From the NCBI GenBank assembly GCA_949283955.1, contig CASDUP010000001.1:1-64000 (forward strand): a DNA stretch of 64,000 nucleotides, given 5' to 3'. The notes under the pieces are model-generated. The model had not been told where the DNA came from, did not search any database, and saw nothing but the letters and a program-made list of their open reading frames with translations. The DNA comes from an uncultured Verrucomicrobiota bacterium. Lineage in GTDB: Bacteria > Verrucomicrobiota > Verrucomicrobiia > Opitutales > Intestinicryptomonadaceae. The position numbers were made by a program, and so were the translations under genes. Numbering within the stretch: the stretch's first letter is position 1; every line of letters begins with the position of its first letter. Shown one piece after another: positions 6,164 through 58,576 of this stretch.

Positions 6164-7360
6164 ATGCGAAAAAGTGGAGAAAAGAAATTCTTTTTTGGAA
6201 TATTGCTGTCGCTGGCGATGGTGCACGGAATGAACGACACAATGCAGTCGGTGGTGTCGGCCTCGTATCCGCTTTTGAAGGACGCCCTGAATCTGTCCTA
6301 CGCCGAAATAGGCTTTGTGGCACTCACATACCAAATATCGTCCTCTCTCATGCAGCCGGTGTTCGGATATATTTTCGACAAGCGCAGCAGCGGCTGGTTC
6401 CTTCCGGCTGGTTTGTTTTGCACGATGGCTGGACTCATTTTCATATCATATTCGCCCAACATATATTTTTTGCTCGCGTCGGTTTTTGTGTCGGGAATGG
6501 GATCTGCGGTGATACATCCCGAAGCTTCGAGAATCACATCGTTCGCTTCGGGCGGAAAACGAGGTTTGGCACAATCAATATTCCAGGTGGGGGGATCGTG
6601 CGGATTTTCGCTAGGGCCTCTCCTTGCGGCGCTCTTTGTAAGAGACCAAACGGGACTTTCCAAATTTTCGGTAGTGGCTCTTGCGGCCTTCGTCGCGATG
6701 ATTCCCGCATGCAGATGGTATTCGAACAGGATAGCGTCCGGAAAATCCGGCAGCGCGCCCGAACTTCAAAGCGACGCTTCGAAACTGCCAAAGAGAACCA
6801 TAATAATCACGGTTTCGATTCTTATGTTTCTAGTGTTTTCAAAAAATTTTTATACTGTAAGCATATCCAACTACTATACCTTCTACCTAATGGAAAAATT
6901 TGGGGTAAGCGTGCAGACTTCCCAAATTGTGCTGTTTGTGTTCCTCTTTTCCGCCGCTCTCGGAACCCTCGTGGGAGGCCCCGTGGGAGACAAGTTCGGA
7001 AGGAGGCTAGTGATATGGTGGTCCATCTTGGGCAGCGCGCCCTTCGCGCTAGCGATGCCCTACGCCAACTTCGAAACGACGATCGTATTGAGCGTCCTGA
7101 TAGGATTTATAATATCGTCCGCATTTTCCGCCATATTGGTCTATGCACAGGAGTTGATTCCCATGAAAATTGGAATGGTATCCGGAATATTTTTCGGATT
7201 TGCCTTTGGAATGGCAGGAGTTTCGTCGGCAGTTCTCGGAAAAATAGCCGACTCCTTCGGGATAGAATTCGTGTATGAATTGTGCTCGTTCTTTCCTCTG
7301 TTCGGAGCGGTGGCGTATTTTTTGCCGAGGGTGAGGTCGCTGCGCTCCATGAAAAAATAG
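6164..7360 (+). CDS. MFS transporter, Fsr (fosmidomycin-resistance)-like
   Basis: A 398-residue polytopic inner-membrane protein with about twelve hydrophobic segments, typical for the major facilitator superfamily. The N-terminus (GILLSLAMVHGMNDTMQSV) and the HPEASRITSFASGGKRG segment after the fourth helix resemble the Fsr subgroup, whose members export fosmidomycin and other small compounds. The MFS loop motif is present as GPVGDKFGRR before the C-terminal half. The substrate here is unknown. I chose the ATG at 6164; the frame extends to a TTG at 6140 with no better context. It is divergent from the ABC-F gene and convergent with the phosphate transporter. Confidence 0.85.
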   Translation: MRKSGEKKFFFGILLSLAMVHGMNDTMQSVVSASYPLLKDALNLSYAEIGFVALTYQISSSLMQPVFGYIFDKRSSGWFLPAGLFCTMAGLIFISYSPNIYFLLASVFVSGMGSAVIHPEASRITSFASGGKRGLAQSIFQVGGSCGFSLGPLLAALFVRDQTGLSKFSVVALAAFVAMIPACRWYSNRIASGKSGSAPELQSDASKLPKRTIIITVSILMFLVFSKNFYTVSISNYYTFYLMEKFGVSVQTSQIVLFVFLFSAALGTLVGGPVGDKFGRRLVIWWSILGSAPFALAMPYANFETTIVLSVLIGFIISSAFSAILVYAQELIPMKIGMVSGIFFGFAFGMAGVSSAVLGKIADSFGIEFVYELCSFFPLFGAVAYFLPRVRSLRSMKK

Positions 7361-54962: not shown

Positions 54963-55035
54963 GCGGGCGTAGCTCAATTGGCAGAGCGTGACCTTGCCAA
55001 GGTCGAGGTTGTCGGTTCGAACCCGATCGCCCGCT
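54963..55035 (+). tRNA. tRNA-Gly (GCC)
   Basis: The cloverleaf is complete: acceptor GCGGGCG/CGCCCGC, D arm AGCTCAATTGGCAGAGC, anticodon stem GACCT/AGGTC around loop TGCCA as CTTGCCAAG, T loop TTCGAAC and discriminator T. Anticodon GCC gives glycine. CCA is not encoded. A terminator follows at 55041. Confidence 0.95.
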
Positions 55036-55501: not shown

Positions 55502-55909
55502 ATGGACATAGAAAGCGCGAAGGTTCTCGGCGTGGGCGTGATGACATTCAGCTCCCTGCTCGGGGCCTACTACTTAATTCTTAGAATAAGGGAATACCAC
55601 TCGGAAAAACCCGATCCCAAACTCACCTACGTCACCCACACCCAGATGGAGGGCGTAAGAAGCGAGATGTTTAGAGCCATAGGAGACGCCGTTCAGGATC
55701 TTAGAACGCTGCGCTCCGAAATAAGGGACGAGACGCGCGCCATGCAGAAGCAGTGCTCCCGGGGACTTTCGGAAGTCCACGAACTCATATCCAGGAACGC
55801 GCAAAACATAAGCGCTCTCGTGGCGCAAACCCAAATAGCAAACCAAAGAATAGCCGAACTGACTCTCAAGACCGACAGATTGTCGATGAAGTCGGGCCGC
55901 GATTCGTAA
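55502..55909 (+). CDS. Small membrane-anchored coiled-coil protein, DUF2730-like (Mu-like phage module)
   Basis: A 135-residue protein with one N-terminal membrane helix (VLGVGVMTFSSLLGAYYLILR, residues 8-28) and a long charged helix behind it (SEMFRAIGDAVQDLRTLRSEIRDETRAMQKQCSRGLSEVHELISRNAQNISALVAQTQIANQRIAELTLKTDRL), most likely a coiled coil. In Mu-like phages a protein of this size and shape (DUF2730) is encoded just before a short winged-helix protein, a DUF3486-like protein and the large terminase, and the same order is seen here. Its phage role is not known. It starts 7 bases after the predicted promoter. Confidence 0.7.
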   Translation: MDIESAKVLGVGVMTFSSLLGAYYLILRIREYHSEKPDPKLTYVTHTQMEGVRSEMFRAIGDAVQDLRTLRSEIRDETRAMQKQCSRGLSEVHELISRNAQNISALVAQTQIANQRIAELTLKTDRLSMKSGRDS

Positions 55910-55923
55910 TTAGCCCCGCTTTT

Positions 55924-56250
55924 ATGAAAAATTTTGCCAAGGACAAGTTTTACTCCGGAGGGAATCCTCCCTCCACGAAGAAAAAACGCAAATACGACGC
56001 CCATCTTTTCAGAAGGGCTATATTGCTCCAGTGCGACGCGGCTCGTCCAGCCTCGCTGTCCTTTATCGTGATGGCGGCGGGATTGGAGCGCGCGGGATTT
56101 TCTTTCAAAGATTCCGAATTGCGTTCGGAGGTGGACTACTTGGAGCAGAAGGGATATGTCGAAATCTCCAGCTCCGCGATAAGCTCCGCCCATCTCAGAA
56201 TTCGCCTGAGCGCGCTCGGAATAGACTACCTGGAATCGGAGGGATTTTAA
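55924..56250 (+). CDS. Short winged-helix protein, VpaChn25_0724-like (Mu-like phage module)
   Basis: A 108-residue protein. Residues of about 25-105 (FRRAILLQCDAARPASLSFIVMAAGLERAGFSFKDSELRSEVDYLEQKGYVEISSSAISSAHLRIRLSALGIDYL) show helix-turn-helix and wing strand patterns typical of small winged-helix proteins from Mu-like phage packaging modules. The N-terminal 20 residues are basic. Its stop (TAA, 56248-56250) overlaps the ATG of the next gene. The lack of a Shine-Dalgarno site is common in this region. The role in packaging, if any, is inferred only from position. Confidence 0.65.
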   Translation: MKNFAKDKFYSGGNPPSTKKKRKYDAHLFRRAILLQCDAARPASLSFIVMAAGLERAGFSFKDSELRSEVDYLEQKGYVEISSSAISSAHLRIRLSALGIDYLESEGF

Positions 56251-56642
56251 TGGCTTCCACGCGAACTTCTCCGAAAAAAACTTCAGGAGGGAAAAAAGAG
56301 TCGGGCACTAAAAAAGAGTCGTTTTCGCCCGGATTCTATTCCCACCTCGAGCGGATACGCGAAGCCAAATCAGCCGCCGACAAAGCCGTTCCCGATTCTC
56401 TCGCGGCGGCCAAGGCGTCGCTTTCCATAGCGTGGGAGGCGGTCTTCGACTACTGTTGCGGGGAGGGGCGCGACGCATCTCTCTCCGGATTGAGTTCCCT
56501 TGCCGGAATAATCCACAAGCTTGTCGCTTCGAATATACAGCTCAAAAATTTGGAGTCCAAATCGGCGTCTTCTGGAGGAGAGCCGAAAGGCTTGGACGAG
56601 GATACAATATCCGAGATAGAGGAGAAGCTTGGTCTTTTGTAG
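56250..56642 (+). CDS. DUF3486-like protein (Mu-like phage module)
   Basis: A 130-residue protein with a Lys/Ser/Thr-rich disordered N-terminus (first 25 residues) and a helical remainder (FYSHLERIREAKSAADKAVPDSLAAAKASLSIAWEAVF, LSSLAGIIHKLVASNIQLKNLESK), ending in LDEDTISEIEEKLGLL. Size, helical content, position between the winged-helix gene and the terminase and the acidic C-terminus fit the Mu gp27 / DUF3486 place, which is thought to be the small packaging subunit that binds DNA. The match is by pattern and order, so moderate. It starts on the stop of the upstream gene (TAATG) and ends 4 bases before the terminase start. Confidence 0.6.
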   Translation: MASTRTSPKKTSGGKKESGTKKESFSPGFYSHLERIREAKSAADKAVPDSLAAAKASLSIAWEAVFDYCCGEGRDASLSGLSSLAGIIHKLVASNIQLKNLESKSASSGGEPKGLDEDTISEIEEKLGLL

Positions 56643-56646
56643 GGCG

Positions 56647-57993
56647 ATGAGAGAGCCGTTTTTTCTTCCGTACCAGCGCGAGTGGATAAGGGATTCCTCT
56701 CGAATAAAACTTATGGAGAAATCCAGGCAGATAGGAATGAGCTGGACAGCGGCGTATTCGATTGTCCGGGTGCATTCCGCCTCCTCGAGGACTCTCGATT
56801 CGTGGGTTTCCTCCCGCGACGAGCTTCAGGCCAAGCTCTTCATAGAGGATTGCAAAAAATTTGCGGAAATTTTGGGGATTGCCTCGAGGGAACTTGCGGG
56901 AGGCGAGTTTTTAAAATCGTGCGCGGGGAGGGCGTTGGAGTTTTCCAACGGGACGAGGGTGTGGTCGCTTTCGTCGAATCCCGACGCCCAGGCGGGAAAG
57001 AGGGGAACGAGAATTTTGGACGAATTCGCCCTACATCCGGATCCGGAGCTTTTGTATTCGATAGCGCTTCCCGGAATAACATGGGGCGGAAATCTCGAAA
57101 TCATATCCACCCACAGGGGAGCAGACAACTTTTTCAACAAACTTGTCGAGGAGGCGAGGTTCGGAGGGAATCCGAAGGGAATATCGCTTCACAAGGTCAC
57201 TTTGCAGGACGCCCTTGAGCAGGGATTGTTGAAAAGGCTAAAGGAAAAAGTCTCTCCGGATTCGGAAATACAGTCCATGGACGAGGCGGGATATTTCGAC
57301 TTCATAAAAAATTCCTGCGCCTCCTCGGAGATATTCATGCAGGAGTACATGTGCGAACCCTTCGACGATTCTTCGTCGTTCGTTCCACATTCCCTGCTTA
57401 AAAACTGCCTGTACCGCCCCGGCGACAAATGGAGGGGCTTTTCAGAAAATTCCGGAGCCTTATATTTGGGAGTGGACGTGGCGCGAAGCAGGGACTTTAG
57501 CGTGTTTTGGCTTTGCGAAAAAATTTCCGACATTTTGTACACGAGGGAGGTAAGGGTTTTTAAAGACGTGCCCTTTTCCGAACAGGAGTCTGTTCTGCAC
57601 GGGTTTTTGAGGCTTCCGAATCTGAGAAGATGTTGCATAGACAAGTCGGGATTGGGAAGGCAGTTTGCGGAGAGGGCGGAATCCAGATACGGATCGACTA
57701 GGGTCGAGGGAATAGCGTTTACCCAGTCGGCAAAGGAGGAGCTCGCGTATCCCTTGAGGTCGCTGTTCGAGGACGCCCGAATCAGAATTCCCGACGATTG
57801 CGACACGCTCGCCGACATAACGGCCGTGCGCAGGGAATCCTTCGCCGGAGGGGGAGTGAGAATAAGCTCTGAAAGGGGTCCGAACGGGCATTCCGACAGA
57901 TTTTGGGCTTTGGCTCTTTGCGCCAGAGCGGCGAGGGAAAGGGCGGGAAGCATGCTGCTCATTTCCGCCGAGAAGAGGAGCTTCGTTTGGTGA
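56647..57993 (+). CDS. Large terminase subunit, Mu gp28-like (intact)
   Basis: A 448-residue DNA-packaging motor, normal size. The ATPase half has Walker A KSRQIGMSW (25-33), Walker B RILDEFA (Asp125, Glu126) and a coupling motif STH (154-156). The RNase-H-type nuclease half keeps its acidic residues: Asp277 in LGVDVARSRDFSVF, Asp332 in CIDKSGLG and Asp417 in NGHSDRFWALAL. This is the Mu gp28 type of TerL. All motifs are intact, so it is not a decayed relic. Despite that, no portal, protease, capsid, tail, lysis or integrase gene follows; the next gene is HU after 304 AT-rich bases. A TTG at 56629 extends the frame but ATG 56647 is preferred. Confidence 0.85.
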   Translation: MREPFFLPYQREWIRDSSRIKLMEKSRQIGMSWTAAYSIVRVHSASSRTLDSWVSSRDELQAKLFIEDCKKFAEILGIASRELAGGEFLKSCAGRALEFSNGTRVWSLSSNPDAQAGKRGTRILDEFALHPDPELLYSIALPGITWGGNLEIISTHRGADNFFNKLVEEARFGGNPKGISLHKVTLQDALEQGLLKRLKEKVSPDSEIQSMDEAGYFDFIKNSCASSEIFMQEYMCEPFDDSSSFVPHSLLKNCLYRPGDKWRGFSENSGALYLGVDVARSRDFSVFWLCEKISDILYTREVRVFKDVPFSEQESVLHGFLRLPNLRRCCIDKSGLGRQFAERAESRYGSTRVEGIAFTQSAKEELAYPLRSLFEDARIRIPDDCDTLADITAVRRESFAGGGVRISSERGPNGHSDRFWALALCARAARERAGSMLLISAEKRSFVW

Positions 57994-58297: not shown

Positions 58298-58576
58298 ATG
58301 AATAAAGCAGAACTTATCGTTGAAATCCAGAAACTCCTCGGGAAAGACGCTTCGAAGGCTTGTGCAGAGCGCGCTCTCAACAGCGTTCTCAGCGCGATCA
58401 AGACTGGCGTCAAGAAGTCTAAAAAGCTTCAGCTCATCGGTTTTGGAACCTTCTCGGTCGTTTCGCGCAAGGCTCGCAAGGGTATCAACCCCCAGACCAA
58501 AGCTCAGATTACCATCAAGGCGTCCAAGGTCGTTAAGTTTAAACCCGGCGCCGACTTTAAATCGATTATCAAGTAA
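58298..58576 (+). CDS. HU/IHF-family DNA-binding protein
   Basis: A 92-residue histone-like protein that bends DNA as a dimer. MNKAELIVEIQKLLGKDASKACAERALNSVLSAIKTGVKK opens the helical part; the beta-arm segment contains IGFGTFSVVSRKARKGINPQTKAQITIKASKVVKFKPGADFKSII, the HU/IHF signature. The ATG at 58298 is preferred, and the frame upstream of it is not part of the protein. A strong terminator follows. It should bind DNA without sequence preference; it is likely the chromosomal HU. Confidence 0.95.
   Translation: MNKAELIVEIQKLLGKDASKACAERALNSVLSAIKTGVKKSKKLQLIGFGTFSVVSRKARKGINPQTKAQITIKASKVVKFKPGADFKSIIK

Follow-up and report, generated by a model that had tools for sequence, protein, structure and literature searches.

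Gene transfer agents (GTAs) are tamed phage particles that carry host DNA and, to our knowledge, few of them are known outside the Alphaproteobacteria. The criteria proposed for their recognition include proteins derived from caudoviricetes, endogenisation of the genes, often over several loci, vertical inheritance and co-diversification, together with packaging of mostly random host DNA, a head too small for the agent's own genes and delivery to other cells (PMC9662315). The small terminase (TerS) of RcGTA starts at its coiled coil, without a helix-turn-helix; without this N-terminal part the protein is held to be free of sequence specificity, and its absence to be the defining property of GTA-type TerS (PMC6854486). 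In Faecalibacterium, the genes of FpGTA form two operons about 125 kb apart, with the fibre on the second operon, and the system is documented by particles, proteomics and packaged DNA of 8.4-8.9 kb (PMC12946183). A search of mainly open-access literature returned no papers on a GTA in Verrucomicrobia, in Opitutales/Puniceicoccales or in the termite gut.

The DNA analysed here (the window, 64,000 nucleotides in all) belongs to an Opitutales bacterium known from a metagenome-assembled genome (MAG) that is 91% complete in 58 contigs; distances between loci were taken from relatives. Comparison of its genes with those of relatives suggests that the packaging-motor locus in the window probably belongs to a GTA-like particle that has been domesticated, is inherited vertically and derives from a B3/Mu-like transposable siphophage.

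A packaging cassette of Mu/B3 type

Inspection of the open reading frames (ORFs) of the window confirmed the four intact, co-directional packaging genes of Mu/B3 type at 55502-57993 (Table 1) described in the original prediction. The T1 protein has a PDPKLTY motif, a coiled coil and one apparent membrane helix at the N-terminus. Its orthologues share 54-71% identity across 12 genus members, Cerasicoccus and other Opitutales have relatives of 34-43% identity upstream of their terminase genes and, by eye, a similar gene occupies the same place in B3-like prophages of these hosts. T2, which had been called a winged-helix protein, is winged-helix-like and takes the place of B3 ORF29 ('similar to phage Mu gp26'), but its match is to phrog_436 (PHROG, E=1.9e-7) and to no named winged-helix family; it is kept across the genus. 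T3 lies where Mu has its small terminase, gp27, an arrangement also seen in phage B3.

The large terminase (TerL) matches phrog_2, terminase large subunit (PHROG, E=1.6e-29), and Pfam Terminase_6N and Terminase_6C, both above their cut-offs. Its motifs, numbered from the ATG at 56647, are KSRQIGMSW (25-33), D125/E126, STH, D277, D332 and D417. The residue numbers first assigned to them were right, but the Walker A motif is deviant in the whole family, with the lysine at the motif start (KSRQxGxS) and no GKS/T. Across 38 sequences, all these residues show no or almost no variation.

Table 1. Positions of the cassette, its flanks and the head-tail genes in the window genome (G000)
Feature	Location	Strand	Description
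tRNA-Gly(GCC)	54963..55035	+	ARAGORN; upstream flank, outside the module
T1	55502..55909	+	135 aa; first cassette gene; ORF intact
T2	55924..56250	+	about 108 aa; small DNA-binding-like (winged-helix-like) protein; Mu gp26 position
T3	56250..56642	+	130 aa; small-terminase homologue without N-terminal DNA-recognition part
TerL	56647..57993	+	448 aa from ATG 56647; gp28 type; ATPase and RNase-H-like nuclease
HU-family DNA-binding gene	58298..58576	+	directly downstream of TerL; PF00216, E=1.4e-26
Head-tail module	G000:C51:1401-8900		portal, protease, cement, capsid, connector, tail tube, hub and unnamed genes
Portal	C51 module		PF06074, E=3e-51
Protease	C51 module		weak match
Cement (decoration) protein	C51 module		PF09956
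Major capsid protein	C51 module		phrog_1005
Connector	C51 module		weak gp36-like match
Coiled-coil ORF	C51 (L002) 6377-6523		between tail-tube-like and hub genes

Of the two flanks singled out beforehand, only one is conserved. The HU gene is part of the TerL locus and always lies directly 3' of TerL in this bacterial family (14/14 family-f1 loci fetched); in other families, no HU gene was seen next to the contiguous cluster. A second PF00216 gene occurs elsewhere in genus members, one of which has two further copies. The tRNA-Gly gene was not found next to the cassette in relatives and, not being conserved, was ruled out as an attachment site.

Head and tail genes on another contig

Beside the cassette, within the window, no portal, capsid, tail, integrase or transposase genes were found. 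The original prediction of no other phage genes stands to that extent, but the genome does contain them and the motor is not an orphan. When the whole genome was searched for the Mu portal family, a single match was returned, on contig C51; after this Mu-type portal gene come those for protease, cement protein, capsid, connector, tail tube and hub. TerL, portal and capsid have one match each in this genome. Two of the C51 proteins were recognised from structures predicted from 17 and 19 sequences: that of a 128 aa protein (pLDDT 93) matches tail tube proteins, with the RcGTA particle among the weaker matches, and that of a 586 aa protein (pLDDT 79) matches the baseplate hubs Mu gp44, T4 gp27 and VgrG. 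TerL, portal, capsid and connector are caudoviricete-derived by family, and tube and hub by fold. The module lies between a UDP-sugar pyrophosphorylase-like gene (ugp, named by reading) and a convergent LysM gene; dnaA lies on the same contig.

This portal-to-hub module on a different contig supports, at the level of sequence, the dispersed GTA with head and tail genes elsewhere that had been favoured from the outset. A phage satellite borrowing the capsid of a helper phage had been proposed as well, and the window locus on its own does resemble a packaging module without head genes. That proposal is contradicted by the resident head module and is scarcely credible: all informative genus members have head genes as well as TerL, no integrase was seen beside the loci and the chromosomal position is conserved. 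Among the ORFs around the window locus and on C51 no transposase, replication or repressor genes were seen; an intact transposable (Mu/B3-like) prophage was rejected, there being no single unit with such genes at either locus.

Distribution in the Opitutales

The genus has 13 other members, of which 12 were informative. The excluded one, G010 (one contig), gave zero candidates in every protein and family search and looks like a data gap; loss of the system by this member was rejected as an explanation because DnaA, HU and AlaRS were also without candidates there. TerL is present in 12/12 informative members (58-67% identity), as is the capsid (71-80%). The genes T1-T2-T3 precede TerL in most of the 14 family-f1 loci; T1 was not seen in the two loci of genus g2, nor T3 in G013, and the genes of relatives come from a simple ORF picker, by which small genes may be missed or mis-started. 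In 13/13 genomes the head module has at least one of its two host neighbours, ugp on the upstream side and the LysM gene on the downstream side (several host-neighbour gene names were assigned by eye from the sequence). Both modules are intact and conserved across the genus, which answers the check on relatives that accompanied the original prediction.

The distance between the two modules varies. They stand back to back in G004 and G008 and were not found together in the remaining genus members; in G001, for example, a single contig has them at 96 kb and 1,723 kb (1.63 Mb apart). In other Opitutales families, cultured Cerasicoccus included, the terminase and head genes are for the most part joined in a single contiguous cluster; in G046, ugp is still found about 3 kb outside it. 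With contiguous and split versions both extant, the system, if it is what it appears to be, would show a phage dismantled step by step. In the Opitutales MAG Zod_Metabat.1145 (L110 7476-18904), TerL is placed about 9 kb downstream of the capsid and not upstream of the portal, which may reflect a separate rearrangement.

A capsid match at E<=1e-30 was obtained in 54/132 genomes drawn from the order, a few of these matches being prophage copies. The capsid gene is mostly single-copy, and many carriers have genomes of 0.8-1.0 Mb. Named carriers are Cerasicoccus frondis, C. maritimus, C. arenae and many Puniceicoccales MAGs, the latter apparently of termite gut to judge from isolate names. The record IMGVR_UViG_3300022689_000476 (IMG/VR, L170), catalogued as viral, has by reading a leucyl-tRNA synthetase-like gene upstream of the cluster and for this reason probably derives from the chromosome of an Opitutales bacterium.

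Vertical inheritance and selection

The trees of TerL, capsid and host AlaRS have four clades in common: (G005,G011), (G002,G009), (G003,(G004,G008)) and (G014,G016). TerL and capsid are mostly unlinked, yet they form the same four clades, and their distances are correlated within the genus (r=0.47, p=0.011). AlaRS was added as a host marker because DnaA distances were not significantly correlated within the genus with those of TerL (p=0.16) or the capsid (p=0.32), correlating with them at the family level only. Within-genus Mantel tests against AlaRS gave r=0.32 (p=0.022) for TerL and r=0.53 (p=0.0001) for the capsid. The shared clades, the correlation with AlaRS distances and the conserved neighbours point to vertical inheritance and co-diversification with the host. 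Endogenisation appears to be full, the genes lying at three loci among host genes in the genus, two of which are seen in the window genome.

These data also bear on a host DNA-processing motor unrelated to particles. HU adjoins TerL in every family member examined, as would suit such a motor; the proposal is nevertheless most implausible, given that portal, capsid and hub co-occur with TerL and that portal and capsid distances correlate with those of TerL.

Pairwise dN/dS values for TerL, portal and capsid are 0.03-0.22 (pairs with estimable dS), rough figures as dS exceeds 1.5 in several pairs. They are far below 1 and show purifying selection on all three genes, in agreement with the selection on TerL that had been presumed, and the ORFs are nearly all open across about 20 genomes. 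In G008 the portal gene (L029 12411-13551) is in two overlapping frames, by frameshift or assembly error. Three outcomes had been named in advance as speaking against a dispersed GTA, namely a head and tail cluster adjacent to the cassette, absence from relatives together with pseudogenes, and dN/dS near 1; none of them occurred.

Relation to B3-like phages and resident prophages

The best phage relatives of TerL are B3-like transposable phages, at about 50% identity, and the Opitutales capsid had no match among 50,697 phage records. Pseudomonas phage B3 itself shares with the present system the order gp26-TerS-TerL-portal and a TerL about 50% identical. Unlike the Opitutales loci, it has a transposase, head genes of Mu gp30/G type and a full PF11985 TerS including the N-terminus.

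B3-like prophages are resident in G001, G005 and G007 (L039, L042 and L043 lie in G007 and G001). All three have homologous terminase and portal genes, and those of G001 and G007 have homologous protease and capsid genes as well; the latter two can serve as an internal contrast to the particle loci. Unlike these loci, the prophages are one contiguous unit with repressor-like genes, and the N-terminal part of TerS is retained in them; the downstream sequence read in G001 and G007 holds tape-measure-like genes of 909-1081 aa. Prophage terminases and capsids form their own clades in the TerL and capsid trees.

Such prophages, complete with repressor-like, portal, capsid and long tape-measure genes in the same genus, raise the question whether the particle loci are the broken-up, decaying remnants of an ordinary prophage; the particle clusters are without replication and lysogeny genes, and the G008 portal looks frameshifted. 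Decay is, however, very improbable in view of the open reading frames, the low dN/dS, the conserved host neighbours, the co-diversification with the host and the separate clades of the prophage proteins.

A truncated small terminase

T3 had been described as DUF3486-like. The protein itself has no Pfam or PHROG match, but its homologues show sub-threshold matches to PF11985 (Mu gp27/TerS) that begin only at profile position 40-57, while the TerS of B3 matches from position 1. When T3 was compared directly with the small terminase of B3, the result was not significant, and the argument rests on the prophage TerS of Opitutales: positions 18-125 of the T3 profile align with its residues 54-182 (E=1.2e-11), and its residues 1-53 have no counterpart in the T3 family, whose members begin with variable sequence. 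Judged by alignment and profile start, T3 thus appears to have no N-terminal DNA-binding domain and would belong to the GTA type of TerS (PMC6854486). The truncation is the strongest hint at a mechanism: with T3 lacking this part, as does the TerS of RcGTA, we infer headful packaging of arbitrary host DNA.

Tail and fibre

No tape-measure gene was found, and a scan of the window genome with PF10145 was negative. In the family-f1 modules in which the gap was read, a conserved coiled-coil ORF of 45-52 aa lies between the tail-tube and hub genes; in other families a fibre-like gene of at least 469 aa occupies this slot. One guess is that the small coiled coil acts as a small tape measure. The tail seems to be very short: genes for a tube and a hub are present, with a fibre in other families. 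Nine genus members each have a single copy of the N-terminal domain of the order-level fibre, located between host genes at a third locus; in the window genome, two profiles gave no match to a fibre.

The fibre varies strongly among relatives, which is compatible with a GTA and equally with a weapon or other device of PBSX type, a domesticated packaging particle whose random host DNA is not usefully delivered. PBSX of Bacillus subtilis packages chromosomal fragments of 13.4 kb (PMC12946183), and every sequence sign of domestication fits such a device as well as it fits a GTA. No sheath or other killing machinery was found, and a PBSX-like function seems unlikely.

A putative gene transfer agent and its relation to known systems

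For the GTA-like particle, the following pathway is proposed. Some cells would express the loci together, and TerL, seated on the portal, would fill a small capsid by the headful from any chromosomal end, because TerS would no longer have its site-recognition domain. Tube, hub and fibre would then be joined to the head as a very short tail, and lysis would free particles bearing random host DNA to relatives. Under the criteria of PMC9662315, the Opitutales system may be regarded as a putative, not a proven, GTA: its sequences show caudoviricete ancestry, endogenisation at several loci and co-diversification with the host. A more specific proposal, which we consider possible but somewhat doubtful, is that of an independent Verrucomicrobiota GTA, derived from a B3-like phage, with a reduced tail and with motor, head and fibre at three unlinked loci, kept in genomes of 0.8-1.0 Mb. 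In such an agent the 45-52 aa coiled coil, in the tape-measure position, may set a tail of one to two rings.

That relatives of particle genes are inherited with their hosts across a whole bacterial order suggests a GTA. If confirmed, the system would represent a separate origin of GTAs, in Opitutales, and a built-in route of gene exchange for gut and marine Verrucomicrobiota. Cultured hosts (Cerasicoccus and isolate Marseille-Q1082) make it directly testable, and TerS truncation provides a sequence mark for finding other GTAs.

Among known systems, FpGTA is the closest analogue. It resembles the Opitutales system in its split loci, a TerS without obvious DNA-binding domain, a very short or absent tail and a gut commensal host, although it belongs to another host phylum. 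RcGTA and other GTAs of Rhodobacterales (Rhodogtaviriformidae) share with it vertical inheritance, co-diversification, a truncated TerS and, often, distribution over several loci. The Opitutales system differs from RcGTA in its Mu/B3-type portal and terminase, its Verrucomicrobiota host and a tail in which no tape measure was found; moreover, in one family, the terminase and head genes are themselves split.
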